From Sphaerochaeta sp. (lineage in GTDB: Bacteria; Spirochaetota; Spirochaetia; Sphaerochaetales; Sphaerochaetaceae), in NCBI GenBank assembly GCA_022482495.1, contig JAKVPA010000002.1, positions 186,001 to 250,000 of the forward strand: a DNA stretch of 64,000 nt, in the 5' to 3' direction. Below, piece after piece: positions 44,446 to 50,261 of this stretch (position 1 is the stretch's first letter; every line of letters begins with the position of its first letter). The position numbers were made by a program, and so were the translations under genes. Below the pieces are notes generated by a model that saw nothing but the letters and a program-made list of their open reading frames with translations, made no database searches and was not told where the DNA came from.

Positions 44446-47400
44446 TCACTGGGGAAGCTCGCGGACGGTGTAGATTCCCTCCTGTTCGTACGCGATCGCC
44501 TGTACGGCGGCAGCGGCCGCCGACGTGGTGGTGGTGTAGGGGATCTTCAGCCGCATGGCGGCGGTCCGGATGTCATCATCACTGCGGCGGGCATGATAGC
44601 CCATCGGCGTGTTGATCACCAGATCCACCTGGCGGGCGTGCATCATGTCGACGATGTTGGGGTGTCCGTCCTGGACCTTCAGCACCACGTTGCACAGGAT
44701 GCCGGCGTCGAACAGATCCCGCGCCGTGCCATGGGTGGCGAACAGGTGGAATCCCAGTTTCTGCAGTTGCCGTGCGATGGGTACGATGGTCTGCCGGTCC
44801 TTCTTGGTCACGCTGATCACCACGTTGCCCGAGGTAGGCAGCCGGTTGCCCGCAGCCGCCTGGCTCTTGGCGTACGCCTCTCCGAAGCTCCGGCCCATGC
44901 CGATCGCCTCTCCGGTGGAGCGCATCTCCGGCCCCAAGGCCGGGTCGACGTTGCTGAACCGGTCGAAGCTGAACACCGCTTCCTTGATGGCCCAGCCGGT
45001 GATGCAGTGCCCTTCGGCGAACGTGCCCTCCCTGCCGACCAGTCCCTGGGCGACCAGATCCTCGCCGTTCCACACCCGGACGGCGGCTTCCACCAGGTTG
45101 ACGCCGCTGGCCTTGCTGATGAACGGTACGGTCCGCGAGCCCCGGGGATTGACCTCGATGATGTACAGCTTGTCCTCCTTGGAGGCGAACTGGATGTTCA
45201 TCAACCCTTTGACCTGCAGTTCCTGGGCCAGCTTCAGTGCCCATTCCCGCATTTGGGAGAGCACCGACGGGATGGCCTTGTACGGCGGGAACACGGCGGC
45301 GCTGTCGCCGGAGTGGATGCCCGCGGCCTCGATGTGCTGCAGAATGCCGCCGATGTAGATGCTCTTGCCGTCGCTGACGGCGTCCAGGTCATACTCGAAC
45401 GCGTCTTCCAGGAACTGGTCGATCAACACCGGGGCCTTGGGCGTGATCTCCACACCGCTGTGCTCCAGGAAGTCCTGCAGTCCCTCCTCGTCGTCCACGA
45501 TGAACATCCCCCGTCCGCCCAGCACGAAGGAGGGGCGGAGCAGTACGGGGAAACCCACTTCCAGCGCCTTGGGGATGATCTCGTCCCTGCTGTGGGCCGT
45601 CTGGTTGGCCGGGTTGCGAAGTCCGAGTTTCCGGACCACCTGGCTGAACCGTTCCCGGTCGCCTGCCCGGTCCAGTCCGTCCAGACTGGTGCCGATGATG
45701 TTGGCCCCGGCGGCCTGGAGGTCATCGGCCATGTTCAGCGGCGTCTGGCCTCCCAGCTGAACGACGACGTTCTTCGTCCCTTCCAGCCGCATGATCTCCT
45801 TGACGTGCTCGGCCGTCAACGGTTCGATGTACAGCCGGTCGGAGATGTTGAAGTCGGTGGATACCGTCTCCGGGTTGGAGTTGACCATGATGGTTTTCCT
45901 GCCCAGCTTCCGGAACGCCAGGGACGAGAGGGTGCAGCAGGTGTCGAACTCCAGTCCTTGGCCGATCCGGTTGGGGCCGGAAGCCAGGATGATCACGGCA
46001 TCCTTTCCCAGCGGGGTGGTCTCATCCTTCTCCCCATAGGTGGTGTAGCAGTACGGGGTCAGCGCCTGGAACTCACCGGCGCAGGTGTCCACGTGGTGGG
46101 CCACGGCGACGATGCCTTCCCCGGTGCGCATCCGGTACACCGCATCCTCGCTCTGGTGGCTCAGCGTGGCGATCCGTTTGTCGCTCATGCCGTACCGTTT
46201 GGCTTCCAGAATCAGCTCTTTGGTCAGCGGTCCTTTGGACAGTTTCTTGTCCATCTCTGCCTGGCGGACCAGCTGATAGAGGAACCAGCGGTCGAAGCCG
46301 GTCAGCTTGGAGAGCTCGGGGAGGATGGACGGACCGTGCTCCACGATCATCGTGTAGGCGCTCATCAGCCTGAGGGGATGGGCGCTGTGCAGGATGTGGT
46401 CGATCTCATCGTCGGTGTACTTGCCGCCTTCCCGCATGTCGGTCAGTCCTTCGAACTTCCGTTCGCTTGCCCGGATGGCCTTGTTCAGCGCTTCCAGCGC
46501 CGTGCGGCCCAGGGCCAGCGCTTCACCCACCGAGCGCATCTGGGTGCCCAGCGCGCTGTAGGGAAGGGGGAACTTTTCCAGTTCGAACCGGGGCACCTTG
46601 ACGGCGCAGTAGTCCAAGGCCGGCTCGAAGCAGGAGACTGATTTGCCGGTGATCTCGTTGACCACCTCGTCCAGCGTGTAACCGACGGCCAGTTTCGCCG
46701 AACATCGGGCGATGGGGAAGCCGGTCGCCTTGCTTGCCAGGGCGGAGGAGCGGGAGACCCGTGGGTTCATTTCGATGACCACCATCTTGCCGGTATCCGG
46801 GTTGACGGCGAACTGGACGTTGGATCCTCCGCAGTCCACACCGACGGCCCTGAGGATGTTGATCGACGCGTCCCGCATCGCCTGGTAGGCCTGGTCGTCC
46901 AGCGTCTGGATCGGCGCGATGGTGATGGAATCCCCGGTGTGCACGCCCATCGGATCGATGTTCTCGATGGAACAGACGATGATGGCGTTGTCCTTGCGGT
47001 CCCGCATCACCTCCATCTCGAACTCCTTCCAGCCGATCAACGACTCCTCCACCAGCGCCTCATGGACCGGGCTGGTCTCCAGAGCGCGCTCAATGCAATC
47101 GGTGAACTCGGCGTCGTCATGGGCGATGGATCCGCCAAAGCCTCCCAGGGTGAAACTCGGCCGGATGATCACCGGGTATCCGATGTCGTCCTTCGCCTTC
47201 ACCCCTTCCTGGATGGTGTGGACCACTTCGCTGCGGGGGCTTTCCAGTCCCAGCGAGCTGACCACCTGCTTGAACTTGCCCCGGTCCTCGGCAAGCTCGA
47301 TGCTTTTGATGGACGCCCCGATGACCTGCACGTTGTATTTGTCCAGAAGACCCTTGCGGGAGAGCTCCATCGCCAGGTTCAACCCGGTCTGGCCTCCCAT

Positions 47401-47667
47401 CGTCGTCAGGATGGCGTCCGGCCTGTCCCGTTGGAAGATCTGCTCGACGTACTCCGTTTTCAGCGGTTCCAGATAGATGTGGTCGGCGATGCCCGCCGTG
47501 GTCTGCACCGTGGCGGGGTTGGGGTTGACCAGCAGTACTTCGTATCCTTCTTCCTTCAGTGCCTTGACCGCCTGTGTGCCGCTGTAGTCGAACTCACACG
47601 CCTGTCCGATGACGATCGGCCCGCTGCCCACCACCAGGATCCGATGGATGTCTTCCCGTTTGCTCAT
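44446..47667 (-). CDS. carB: Carbamoyl-phosphate synthase large subunit
   Basis: CarB makes carbamoyl phosphate for pyrimidines and arginine. The 1073-residue protein contains the two homologous ATP-grasp halves. Visible landmarks are RILVVGSGPIVIGQACEFDY at the start, EMNPRVSRSSALASKATG in the first half, and ASGPNRIGQGLEFDTCC and EVNPRGSRTVPFISKASG in the second. The C-terminal allosteric domain (GTARDLFDAGILC) follows. Its start overlaps the carA stop. Length is normal. Confidence 0.97.
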   Translation of the reverse strand: MSKREDIHRILVVGSGPIVIGQACEFDYSGTQAVKALKEEGYEVLLVNPNPATVQTTAGIADHIYLEPLKTEYVEQIFQRDRPDAILTTMGGQTGLNLAMELSRKGLLDKYNVQVIGASIKSIELAEDRGKFKQVVSSLGLESPRSEVVHTIQEGVKAKDDIGYPVIIRPSFTLGGFGGSIAHDDAEFTDCIERALETSPVHEALVEESLIGWKEFEMEVMRDRKDNAIIVCSIENIDPMGVHTGDSITIAPIQTLDDQAYQAMRDASINILRAVGVDCGGSNVQFAVNPDTGKMVVIEMNPRVSRSSALASKATGFPIARCSAKLAVGYTLDEVVNEITGKSVSCFEPALDYCAVKVPRFELEKFPLPYSALGTQMRSVGEALALGRTALEALNKAIRASERKFEGLTDMREGGKYTDDEIDHILHSAHPLRLMSAYTMIVEHGPSILPELSKLTGFDRWFLYQLVRQAEMDKKLSKGPLTKELILEAKRYGMSDKRIATLSHQSEDAVYRMRTGEGIVAVAHHVDTCAGEFQALTPYCYTTYGEKDETTPLGKDAVIILASGPNRIGQGLEFDTCCTLSSLAFRKLGRKTIMVNSNPETVSTDFNISDRLYIEPLTAEHVKEIMRLEGTKNVVVQLGGQTPLNMADDLQAAGANIIGTSLDGLDRAGDRERFSQVVRKLGLRNPANQTAHSRDEIIPKALEVGFPVLLRPSFVLGGRGMFIVDDEEGLQDFLEHSGVEITPKAPVLIDQFLEDAFEYDLDAVSDGKSIYIGGILQHIEAAGIHSGDSAAVFPPYKAIPSVLSQMREWALKLAQELQVKGLMNIQFASKEDKLYIIEVNPRGSRTVPFISKASGVNLVEAAVRVWNGEDLVAQGLVGREGTFAEGHCITGWAIKEAVFSFDRFSNVDPALGPEMRSTGEAIGMGRSFGEAYAKSQAAAGNRLPTSGNVVISVTKKDRQTIVPIARQLQKLGFHLFATHGTARDLFDAGILCNVVLKVQDGHPNIVDMMHARQVDLVINTPMGYHARRSDDDIRTAAMRLKIPYTTTTSAAAAAVQAIAYEQEGIYTVRELPQ

Positions 47668-48788
47668 ACGTTGCCCCCCAGTTGGATGAATCGGTCGAAA
47701 ATCCAGGACGCGTCATACGGGCCTGGCGAGGCTTCCGGATGGAACTGCACCGACGCGATGCGGCGCCCCTCGTCCATCAATCCTTCGATGGAACCGTCGT
47801 TGGCGTTGGTGAACCAGATGGAGACGGAGGATGGCAGGGAGGCGGGGTCGCTCATGAAGCCGTGGTTCTGGCTGGTGACGAACGTCTTGCCGCTCTGGTG
47901 GTCATACACCGGGTGGTTCCCGCCATGGTGTCCGAACTTCATCTTCACCGTTTTTCCCCCCAGGGCCCAGGTGATGATCTGGTGGCCCAGGCAGATGCCC
48001 AGCACCGGCATCGTGCCGATCAGGCTCCGTACCATCTGGACGGATGGCTGCAGCAGGGCGGGGTCCCCCGGCCCGTTGGAGAGGAACAGCGCCTGGGCGC
48101 CGGTCGCCAGGACGTCCTCCTTGCTTGCCGTTGCCGGAAGCAGCGTCACGGCGACGTTCCGCCGGTACAGCTGGCGGATGATGGAGCGCTTGATGCCGTA
48201 GTCCACCACGGCGAAGCGGAGGGTGGGGTGTTCCGCTTTCTTGCCGTCGACCAAGGGATCGACCAGGGGGGCTTTGACCGTCACCCCGTCGATCAGATCG
48301 CGCTCGGTGATCAGCGGGAAGGCGCGCAACGTCTTGAGAGCGTCGGCTTTTACCTCTTCGGTGACCGGCCCGTCCACCGACAGGATCATGCCGTTCTGGC
48401 TGCCTGCCTCGCGCAGATGGAGCGTCAGGCTTCGGGTGTCCACATCGCTGATCATCGGGATCCTCTGGGCTTCCAGGTACTCCTCCAGGCTGATCCGCCC
48501 TTCAGGAAGCGGCCCCTGGTACAACTCATGGACGATCATTGCGGTGGCCTTGATGCCGTCACTCTCCGTGAAGGGGGTGTCGCATCCGTAGTTGCCGATC
48601 TCCGGATAGGTCATCACCACCATCTGACCGTGATAGGAGGGATCGGTGAGGATCTCCTGGTAGCCCGTCATGCTGGTGTTGAAGACGACTTCCGCGATGG
48701 GCGCTTCGGCGCCCTCGGGAACCTGGTAGCCATGTGCGGTCCCTGTCCAACAGGATCCGTCAGAAAGCAGAAGTATGGTATGCTGCAT
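47664..48788 (-). CDS. carA: Carbamoyl-phosphate synthase small subunit
   Basis: This 374-residue glutaminase subunit of CPSase delivers ammonia to CarB. The N-terminal CPSase domain starts LLLSDGSCWTGTAHGYQVPEG. The class I amidotransferase domain has nucleophile Cys in VLGICLGHQIITWALGGKT and the His-Glu pair in SVQFHPEASPGP. A GAGGA ribosome site precedes the ATG. It is the first gene of a carAB operon whose promoter region carries four TGTTGCAT-type repeats. Confidence 0.97.
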   Translation of the reverse strand: MQHTILLLSDGSCWTGTAHGYQVPEGAEAPIAEVVFNTSMTGYQEILTDPSYHGQMVVMTYPEIGNYGCDTPFTESDGIKATAMIVHELYQGPLPEGRISLEEYLEAQRIPMISDVDTRSLTLHLREAGSQNGMILSVDGPVTEEVKADALKTLRAFPLITERDLIDGVTVKAPLVDPLVDGKKAEHPTLRFAVVDYGIKRSIIRQLYRRNVAVTLLPATASKEDVLATGAQALFLSNGPGDPALLQPSVQMVRSLIGTMPVLGICLGHQIITWALGGKTVKMKFGHHGGNHPVYDHQSGKTFVTSQNHGFMSDPASLPSSVSIWFTNANDGSIEGLMDEGRRIASVQFHPEASPGPYDASWIFDRFIQLGGNV

Positions 48789-48810
48789 GATTCCTCGTCA
48801 AATTGACGAT

Positions 48811-48904
48811 ATGATAGCGTAGACAGAAAATTTATGCAACAGTTCTTGCATGAATTTGCAACATACCCGAAGAATCTCTTCGGATATGCAACATTTATGC
48901 AACA
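48811..48904 (-). promoter_or_regulatory. carAB promoter with four phased TGTTGCAT repeats
   Basis: On the minus strand -35 TTGCAT (48834-48839) and -10 TATCAT (48811-48816) are 17 bases apart. The -35 lies in the first of four direct repeats TGTTGCA(T/A) at 48834, 48856, 48886 and 48897. Their spacings of 22, 30 and 11 bases are near whole helical turns. A perfect 7-bp hairpin, CCGAAGA/TCTTCGG (48867-48883), lies among them and would end the mgtE transcript. A repressor for pyrimidine or arginine control is likely but unidentified. Confidence 0.6.
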
Positions 48905-48905
48905 A

Positions 48906-50261
48906 TCATACGCCAAGCAACTCTTTGGCGATGGTGAAATAGATCACCAGGCTCATCGCGTCGACGATGGTGGTGATCAACGGGGCGGCCATGATGGCCG
49001 GATCCACGTGGATCTTCTTGGCCAGAAGCGGCAGCAGTCCACCGATCAACTTGGCCAGCAGCACGGTGAAGAACATCGTCAGCGAGACGGTGAAGGCGAT
49101 CATCATCGTGACGTTCCGGTAGGTCAGTACGATCCGGATGAAGTTCACCGCGGCCAGGACAAGCCCGACCAAAATGGATACCCGGAGTTCTTTCCACATG
49201 ATTTTCACCCAGTCCCGGGGTTCCACTTCTCCGACGGCCAGTCCGCGAATGATCAAGGCGGAGGACTGGCTGCCGGCGTTGCCGCCGGTATCGGTCAGCA
49301 TCGGGATGAACGTGACCAGCAGCGGGATGGCGACGAACGCGTCGGTGAACCGCTCCAGAATGGAGCCGGTGATCATTCCGCTGACCATCAGGATCAGCAG
49401 CCAGAGGATCCGGTGCTTGGCCATTTCCACCACGCCGGTCTTCAGATACGGTTTTTCCGACGGTTGCATGGCGGCCATCTTTTCGATGTCCTCCGTCGCC
49501 TCGTCCTGCATGACGTCCACGGCGTCATCCACCGTGACGATGCCGACCAGACGGTTCTCCGCGTCCACCACCGGGAGCGCGACGAAATCGTATTTGTTGA
49601 ACAGCCGGGCGGCCACTTCCTGGTCGTCCGTCGTGGTGACGCTGATGATGTCTTTTTCCATCACGTCCTCGACGTGCTGGTCGTCCTTGGCAAGGAGCAG
49701 ATCCTTGATGGAGGCCGTTCCTTCCAGATGGTGTTCCTGGTCGGTGACGTAACAGGTGTAGATCGTCTCCTTGTCTTCCCCGGTGGAGCGGATCCTGTCA
49801 ATCGCTTCCTTGATGGTCAGTTCCCGTTTCAGGTCGACGAACTCACTGGTCATGATCGACCCGACGCTGTCATCCGGATAGCGCAGGTAGTGGTTGATCA
49901 ACTGGCGGGTTTCCGGTTTGGCGTTGCGCAGTACTTTGCGCACGATGTTGGCCGGCAGTTCCCCGATCATGTCCACGGCGTCATCCACCGACAGATCGTC
50001 GATGATGGTGGAAAGCTGCTGGTCATCCAGCGAGTTGATCAACTGCTCCTGGTTCTCGATGGGGAGGTTGGCGAATACGTCGGCCGCGACCTCCTTCTCC
50101 AGCAGGCCGAAGACGATCATCACCTGGGGTGGAGGAAGCGCCCCGATGAAGTCCGCGACGTCCACCTCGTTGAGGTGGGTGAGTTTTTCCTTCAGATCGG
50201 CATACCGATGATTCTCGGCATCGGCGATCAATGCTTCCTTGTCGTACTGGTAATCTTGCAT
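48906..50261 (-). CDS. mgtE: Magnesium transporter MgtE
   Basis: This 451-residue inner-membrane Mg2+ channel has an N-terminal superhelical MgtE domain (residues about 20-125) and two CBS domains (about 130-255). A membrane domain with five segments follows, including the pore motif GGNAGSQSSALIIRGLA. It starts at 50261. The leader before it is about 155 bases long and folds extensively, which fits magnesium-responsive control. It lies upstream of carAB on the same strand, with the carAB promoter starting at its stop codon. Confidence 0.94.
   Translation of the reverse strand: MQDYQYDKEALIADAENHRYADLKEKLTHLNEVDVADFIGALPPPQVMIVFGLLEKEVAADVFANLPIENQEQLINSLDDQQLSTIIDDLSVDDAVDMIGELPANIVRKVLRNAKPETRQLINHYLRYPDDSVGSIMTSEFVDLKRELTIKEAIDRIRSTGEDKETIYTCYVTDQEHHLEGTASIKDLLLAKDDQHVEDVMEKDIISVTTTDDQEVAARLFNKYDFVALPVVDAENRLVGIVTVDDAVDVMQDEATEDIEKMAAMQPSEKPYLKTGVVEMAKHRILWLLILMVSGMITGSILERFTDAFVAIPLLVTFIPMLTDTGGNAGSQSSALIIRGLAVGEVEPRDWVKIMWKELRVSILVGLVLAAVNFIRIVLTYRNVTMMIAFTVSLTMFFTVLLAKLIGGLLPLLAKKIHVDPAIMAAPLITTIVDAMSLVIYFTIAKELLGV

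Follow-up and report, generated by a model that had tools for sequence, protein, structure and literature searches.

A helically phased TGTTGCA array upstream of carAB in a Sphaerochaeta genome, probably part of a family-wide nucleotide-synthesis regulon

Four copies of the heptamer TGTTGCA stand upstream of carA in the window, the 64,000-nucleotide stretch of a Sphaerochaeta genome analysed here, and raise the question of which protein might read them and for which genes. The reading favoured here, and held to be probable from sequence comparison, is that the array represents the operators of a nucleotide-synthesis regulon shared across the family, with a protein of the HTH-WYL/WCX type as the likeliest factor and with inputs from ArgR and from an AATTTG transcription start overlaid at carAB.

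The array and the carAB promoter

The locus comprises the following features, numbered within the window.

44446-47667, minus strand: carB, carbamoyl-phosphate synthase large subunit (Pfam CPSase_L domains)
47664-48788, minus strand: carA, carbamoyl-phosphate synthase small subunit (Pfam CPSase_sm_chain and GATase)
48799-48804, minus strand: AATTTG, putative slippage-type start with its +1 placed at 48804, exactly 6 bp after the -10 element and in the family register
48811-48816, minus strand: -10 element TATCAT, assigned from sequence, in a register conserved in the family
48834-48839, minus strand: -35 element TTGCAT, assigned from sequence, 17 bp before the -10 element
48824-48839, minus strand: weaker ArgR-type box TTGCATAAATTTTCTG from a box scan, 12/16 and weak on its own, centred 22 bp from the stronger box
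48835-48841, minus strand: array copy 4, TGTTGCA(T), promoter-proximal and overlapping the -35 element
48847-48853, minus strand: putative degenerate fifth copy TCATGCA, 10 bp past copy 3, with 5/7 bases, placed by its register
48846-48861, plus strand: ArgR-type box TTGCATGAATTTGCAA from a box scan, 14/16 to the palindrome TTGCATAAATATGCAA
48857-48863, minus strand: array copy 3, TGTTGCA(A), at 30 bp from copy 2, a spacing more frequent in the family than any other
48861-48889, minus strand: stem-loop lying between copies 2 and 3 and overlapping each at its ends, RNA z-score -4.6
48887-48893, minus strand: array copy 2, TGTTGCA(T), in an 11-bp pair that recurs in the family
48898-48904, minus strand: array copy 1, TGTTGCA(T), in an 11-bp direct pair with copy 2 of a kind also present at the genome's own purE and at other family targets

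The initial annotation had described four helically phased repeats in this promoter. The four heptamer cores are all present, with spacings of 11, 30 and 22 bp that are indeed near whole helical turns, and copy 4 (48841-48835) overlaps the -35 element (48839-48834) as it had proposed. The longer, 8-base form is exact in three copies, which read TGTTGCAT with T after the heptamer; the copy at 48857-48863 reads TGTTGCAA, with A, and is one mismatch away from it. Because of this copy, no match is returned when two exact, complete 8-mers offset by 22 bp are searched for. Counted over the entire window with one mismatch allowed, the 8-mer is about as frequent as chance predicts (45 observed, 44.7 expected); the clustering is exceptional, with at least three TGTTGCA within 71 bp in none of 200 window shuffles. 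The closest named relatives of carA (best 9) are from uncultured Spirochaetaceae or Spirochaetales.

The carA promoter was assigned from its spacing and from the register seen in the family. A consensus promoter scan does not report it, since TTGCAT agrees with TTGACA at too few positions. Downstream of the -10 element, the family regions share a start motif that emerges from an unbiased 7-mer count, in which CAATTTG is found in 39 of 92 carA regions (4.5 expected). In its general form, RRTTTG lies 5-7 bases after TANNNT in 54 of the 92 promoters (2.8 expected) and exactly 6 bases after it in 51, every other spacing from 0 to 15 accounting for 0-4 each; the distance from RRTTTG to the start of the CarA match is 12-94 bases. 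Among these 54 promoters, the TTG of the -35 element falls within TGTTGCA in 38 and outside it in 15, and one has no TTG. The strict start motif was not found in 38 of the 92, including all promoters of g2, g15, g17, g18 and g21. AATTTG is also the start of E. coli pyrBI. The carA start should allow UTP-sensitive reiterative transcription.

Transcription from the proposed +1 would give a carA leader of 16 nt (48804-48789). The initial annotation had seen no likeness to PyrR sites, which is right as far as the placement of the promoter allows: the repeats are upstream of it, and PyrR attenuation was ruled out because so short a leader leaves no room for an attenuator before carA.

Two further features at the upstream end had been described with the repeats. 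The hairpin between copies 2 and 3 is present, as stated, and is probably no part of the operator. Among the 92 family regions, a perfect stem of at least 7 pairs between copies is the longest stem in eight, and in the seven other than the genome's own it is formed by an inverted pair of the array repeat itself; by this longest-stem test the stem-loop is peculiar to the Sphaerochaeta genome. This strong structure in the mgtE-carA interval has no T run and is perhaps an mgtE 3' end. The mgtE gene itself, confirmed by Pfam upstream of the array, ends with a stop codon at 48906-48908, separated from copy 1 by a single base. That position was correctly reported, but it looks accidental and is probably no part of the system, because none of the 62 other carA loci searched (some with short flanks) encodes mgtE.

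Conservation, phasing and target genes

The family set consists of 139 genomes, including the Sphaerochaeta genome (G000). Any match to the carA query was found in 112 of them, and 92 upstream regions entered the counts; left out were G112 (34% identity), the partial matches in G064, G067, G134 and G142, and genomes matching only via the amidotransferase part of another enzyme. TGTTGCA is the commonest 7-mer in these regions, occurring in 85 of 92 against 3.0 expected from first-order shuffles, and on either strand in 89 against 6.3 expected, in counts that, like all those for the family, are inflated by the relatedness of the genomes. Only G003, G023 and G099 lack it on both strands. Absence of the repeats from orthologous carA promoters, the outcome that the initial annotation had named as fatal to its proposal, therefore did not occur. 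In other families of the class, the heptamer is present in 2 of 13 carA regions, two of the 13 being short (G038, 35 bp; G050, 143 bp).

The spacing is conserved along with the sequence. Distances between same-strand copies at carA peak at 11, 21-22, 30, 41-44, 51-52 and 61-64 bp, with a best period of 10.3-10.35 bp. At a period of 10.5 bp, the Rayleigh statistic is R=0.76 for 131 same-strand pairs at carA, R=0.74 when each distance is taken once per genus (61 pairs) and R=0.74 for 23 same-strand pairs upstream of purE; each of these values was unmatched in 5000 sets of random, uniformly distributed distances, although pairs from one region are not independent. Such phasing, found at carA and separately at purE, supports the earlier expectation of a protein bound to one face of the DNA. 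An inverted TGTTGCA pair is the longest perfect stem in 17 of the 92 carA regions, and most copies are direct repeats.

The same arrangement marks other genes. In the Sphaerochaeta genome, the gapped pair TGTTGCA-N4-30-TGTTGCA has seven matches against none in a reversed control. Three of them belong to carA and two to purE-purC, another stands upstream of a galactokinase-like gene, and the last (L289, contig C9) is inside a coding sequence and was taken as chance. The purE array in this genome has three copies, spaced 11 and 31 bp. Across the 139 genomes, a strict 11-bp pair gives 43 matches, in 33 genomes, against one in the control. By their neighbours, 19 belong to carA, eight to a regulator gene, five to BMP-type substrate-binding proteins of nucleoside-type transporters, one to purE and one to guaB; the nine others comprise four at TctC-like proteins, one each at a glutamine synthetase, a riboflavin-type ECF component and a permease, and two without clear assignment. 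The carA and regulator assignments are by coordinates, those of purE, guaB, BMP, TctC, ECF and permease by Pfam in at least one member, and the rest by reading the translations. The nine matches without a clear nucleotide role count against the reading of the array as a nucleotide regulon.

In G086 (L297), the 11-bp pair stands directly before the likely ribosome site of the gene that reads like glutamine synthetase, and the pairs near TctC-like substrate-binding proteins (L314, L315, L318, L323) come from two genera.

Counts at single genes extend the target set. At least one TGTTGCA lies within 200 bp upstream of purE in 27 of 30 loci (2.6 expected), these loci being 30 of 66 matching genomes and one having only 52 bp upstream. 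Of 46 genomes in which the promoter of the regulator gene could be evaluated, 31 (2.3 expected), G000 among them, have the heptamer there; four of the 50 loci were not counted, as the start was not found in L364, L365 and L366 and L367 was too short.

The initial annotation had suggested looking for the repeats at other pyrimidine or arginine genes; at pyrB, argF and argR they hardly occur. Upstream regions contain TGTTGCA in 0 of 20 cases for pyrB, 2 of 11 for argF and 0 of 9 for argR; with start codons guessed by script and some of them doubtful, whole fetched stretches of 366-701 bp were counted too, and have it in 2 of 20 for pyrB and 2 of 20 for the arginine genes. A pyrimidine-only regulon was rejected on the lack of copies upstream of pyrB. 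The family pyrB genes (L168-L187) have features of another kind: ahead of many of them there is, by eye, a short reading frame together with a hairpin carrying a T run, reminiscent of E. coli pyrBI attenuation, and their open frames of about 530-580 residues suggest a PyrB-PyrI fusion.

Candidate proteins at the array

The regulator gene found beside the 11-bp pair encodes a protein of about 320 residues with HTH_11 and WCX domains, located in the Sphaerochaeta genome at G000:C2:3519-4469. Both the HTH_11 domain and the C-terminal WCX domain are above cut-off in this copy and are matched in 11 of 11 aligned members (HTH_11 with E up to 1), the ten others sharing 57-75% identity with it. Residues 138-314 are matched by the PADLOC WYL model (1.8e-8). 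For one regulator, the 15 matches listed at E 0.01 do not include the Pfam WYL model, so the WYL domain is divergent. When a profile is built from the 11 members, solved WYL proteins match it in the WCX part and nowhere else. Among PADLOC models, a Cas3c model gives the strongest match, through its first 300 positions (1.5e-36; L358:1520-2482:+), a hint that HTH-WYL proteins of this kind went into building it.

The protein is widespread. It is matched in 126 of the 139 genomes at E 0.001, and in 125 clearly, the match in G013 being too weak to count and some of the others being partial or split. In the G000 regulator promoter, a TGTTGCA copy follows the putative -10 element; the 15 promoters of 46 without an exact heptamer are all from genus g16. 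In several loci (L294, L303, L306, L307, L310, L321) the regulator gene is, by eye, divergent from a small slyX-like gene with the array between both, and the motif there could serve the divergent gene instead. Among the 92 genomes with a carA region, 86 have regulator and carA motif, two the regulator only, three the motif only and one neither. The three with the motif only are assemblies that are 68-82% complete; the one with neither, G023, is a single-contig genome whose carA has an ArgR-type box and no TGTTGCA. Co-occurrence thus gives no clean separation and is weakly informative.

When a motif stands at the promoter of a conserved HTH protein that senses a ligand, this usually points to the cognate regulator, and for this combination of autogenous motif and wide conservation the HTH-WYL/WCX protein was chosen as the candidate that probably binds the array. 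A response regulator of the OmpR/PhoB type, considered for the 11-bp direct repeats, was dropped once the gene next to the array turned out to encode an HTH-WYL/WCX protein.

ArgR is the other protein for which the carA promoter has sites. The Sphaerochaeta genome encodes one ArgR (E 1.1e-18), and ArgR-type boxes are present at its argF and argR. The palindrome TTGCATAAATATGCAA with up to three mismatches has 28 matches at 22 places in this genome against five in the control; when two at most are allowed, the 52 genomes that encode ArgR give 271 matches against 37 in the control, and nine without ArgR give 30 against 11. ARG boxes would be expected as two imperfect palindromes in tandem, about 21 bp apart and over the promoter; carA has one good box (14/16) and one weak one (12/16) that overlaps the -35 element, with their centres 22 bp apart. 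Across the family, a box of at least 13/16 is found in 39% of the 92 carA regions (2% of shuffles) and in 10% of 29 purE regions (1% of shuffles), and T follows TGTTGCA in 134 of the 228 carA copies and in 27 of the 66 purE copies. Since ArgR boxes are enriched at carA and the T is commoner there than at purE, the TTGCAT letters of the carA promoter seem to be read by two proteins. The initial statement that the repeats do not look like ArgR sites is accordingly right for the TGTTGCA core, which also occurs at purine and transporter genes, but too strong for the promoter.

The highest-scoring ArgR-type boxes of the genome (L112, L113, L114, L119, L128, L133) lie, by eye, upstream of apparent amino-acid or peptide transporters and of glutamate dehydrogenase, which suggests a wider ArgR regulon.

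Could arginine repression over the -35 element, as at P2 of E. coli carAB, be the whole story, with the repeats as ArgR half-sites? This was the reading adopted at first, on the clear boxes at carA, argF and argR, and the 14/16 box and the tandem canonical ArgR boxes at carA in some genera speak for it. It was demoted, and is now considered quite unlikely, because the TG ahead of TTGCA is kept at carA and missing from the genome's own argF and argR boxes, and because the same arrays stand at purE and BMP transporters and hardly at arginine genes. In genera g17 and g21, moreover, the ArgR boxes and the TGTTGCA group are separate, by eye, within one carA upstream region.

The choice of binder is a distinct matter. 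A different protein might read the same nucleotide-regulon operators, with the WYL regulator as one more target; the WYL protein was, after all, picked only via its promoter motif and its conservation. Against this stand the autogenous motif itself, as the usual mark of a cognate regulator, and the neighbours of the 43 pair matches (surveyed by eye, partly with Pfam), among which no other regulator gene was seen, and another binder is judged unlikely. That the copies are phased T-tracts, UP-like sequences or curved DNA, assisting the promoter with no specific regulator involved, would fit the T runs ahead of many copies and the conserved phasing. The conserved element, however, is a specific 7-mer and not a T-tract, occurs in both orientations and accompanies a functionally coherent gene set, which makes this explanation highly improbable.

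Under the favoured reading, the WYL regulator would occupy the phased array on one face of the DNA and would respond, through its WYL domain, to a nucleotide or nucleic-acid signal reflecting purine or pyrimidine status. Since the promoter-proximal copy overlaps the -35 element, repression at carA would likely act by exclusion of RNA polymerase. ArgR with arginine may compete for, or share, the same stretch, and transcription escaping repression may be tuned by UTP at the AATTTG start. In its fullest form, the proposal makes the WYL protein the housekeeping nucleotide regulator of the family, acting via phased arrays at purE, carAB, guaB, nucleoside importers and its own gene, with ArgR and slippage joined at the carAB promoter; the chances that this holds in every part appear evenly balanced. 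If true, it would fill in the control of purine and carbamoyl-phosphate synthesis in these spirochaetes.

Comparison with known systems

The target set resembles those of other nucleotide regulators. In E. coli, PurR co-regulates purE, guaB and carAB, and these genes are likewise among the targets of LacI-type PurR and PRPP-binding PurR regulons. The TGTTGCA array presumably differs from both in operator sequence and in regulator family. In the part of the open-access literature searched, judged by title and start of abstract among the matches listed, no description of this TGTTGCA motif or of a WYL regulator of purine or carAB genes appears.

The candidate regulator shares the layout of HTH, WYL and WCX domains with PafBC, DriD, CapW and BrxR, whose roles, in the parts of the literature drawn on here, are in DNA damage or phage defence, as are those of the other WYL regulators found described. 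Sensing of nucleic acids or nucleotides has been proposed for WYL domains (PMC6789036, PMC4012209, in the sections used here), and a housekeeping nucleotide regulon, if true, would be a natural setting for finding a WYL ligand. Unlike the targets of the studied WYL factors, those considered here are nucleotide genes, and the sites are phased and mostly direct repeats. CapW, a homodimeric WYL repressor, binds palindromes near the -10 element in the available part of its description (PMC9122588), so the preponderance of direct repeats counts against WYL binding.

The start of carA resembles those of E. coli pyrBI and carAP1 in having a purine, three T and a G shortly past the -10 element, here read from the sequence of a spirochaete, and suggests that UTP-sensitive slippage control reaches a phylum far from E. 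coli. The carAB P1 transcript of E. coli starts with GUUUGC and slips at high UTP; single T substitutions abolish the control, a start A slips more than a G, and the effect is modest and works at low UTP (PMC6245113, in the passages drawn on here).

The closest parallel is the carAB operon of E. coli, where arginine, purine and pyrimidine inputs likewise converge and ARG boxes likewise overlap a -35 element (PMC6245113). The inputs there are divided, with ArgR at P2, and with PurR, RutR, PepA, IHF and UTP-dependent slippage at P1, and a PUR box is described at carAB (PMC6245113). By contrast, a single promoter seems to carry all inputs in the Sphaerochaeta genome, and the nucleotide signal, conveyed in E. 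coli by PurR, PepA and RutR, would here arrive through phased TGTTGCA copies and probably a WYL protein.
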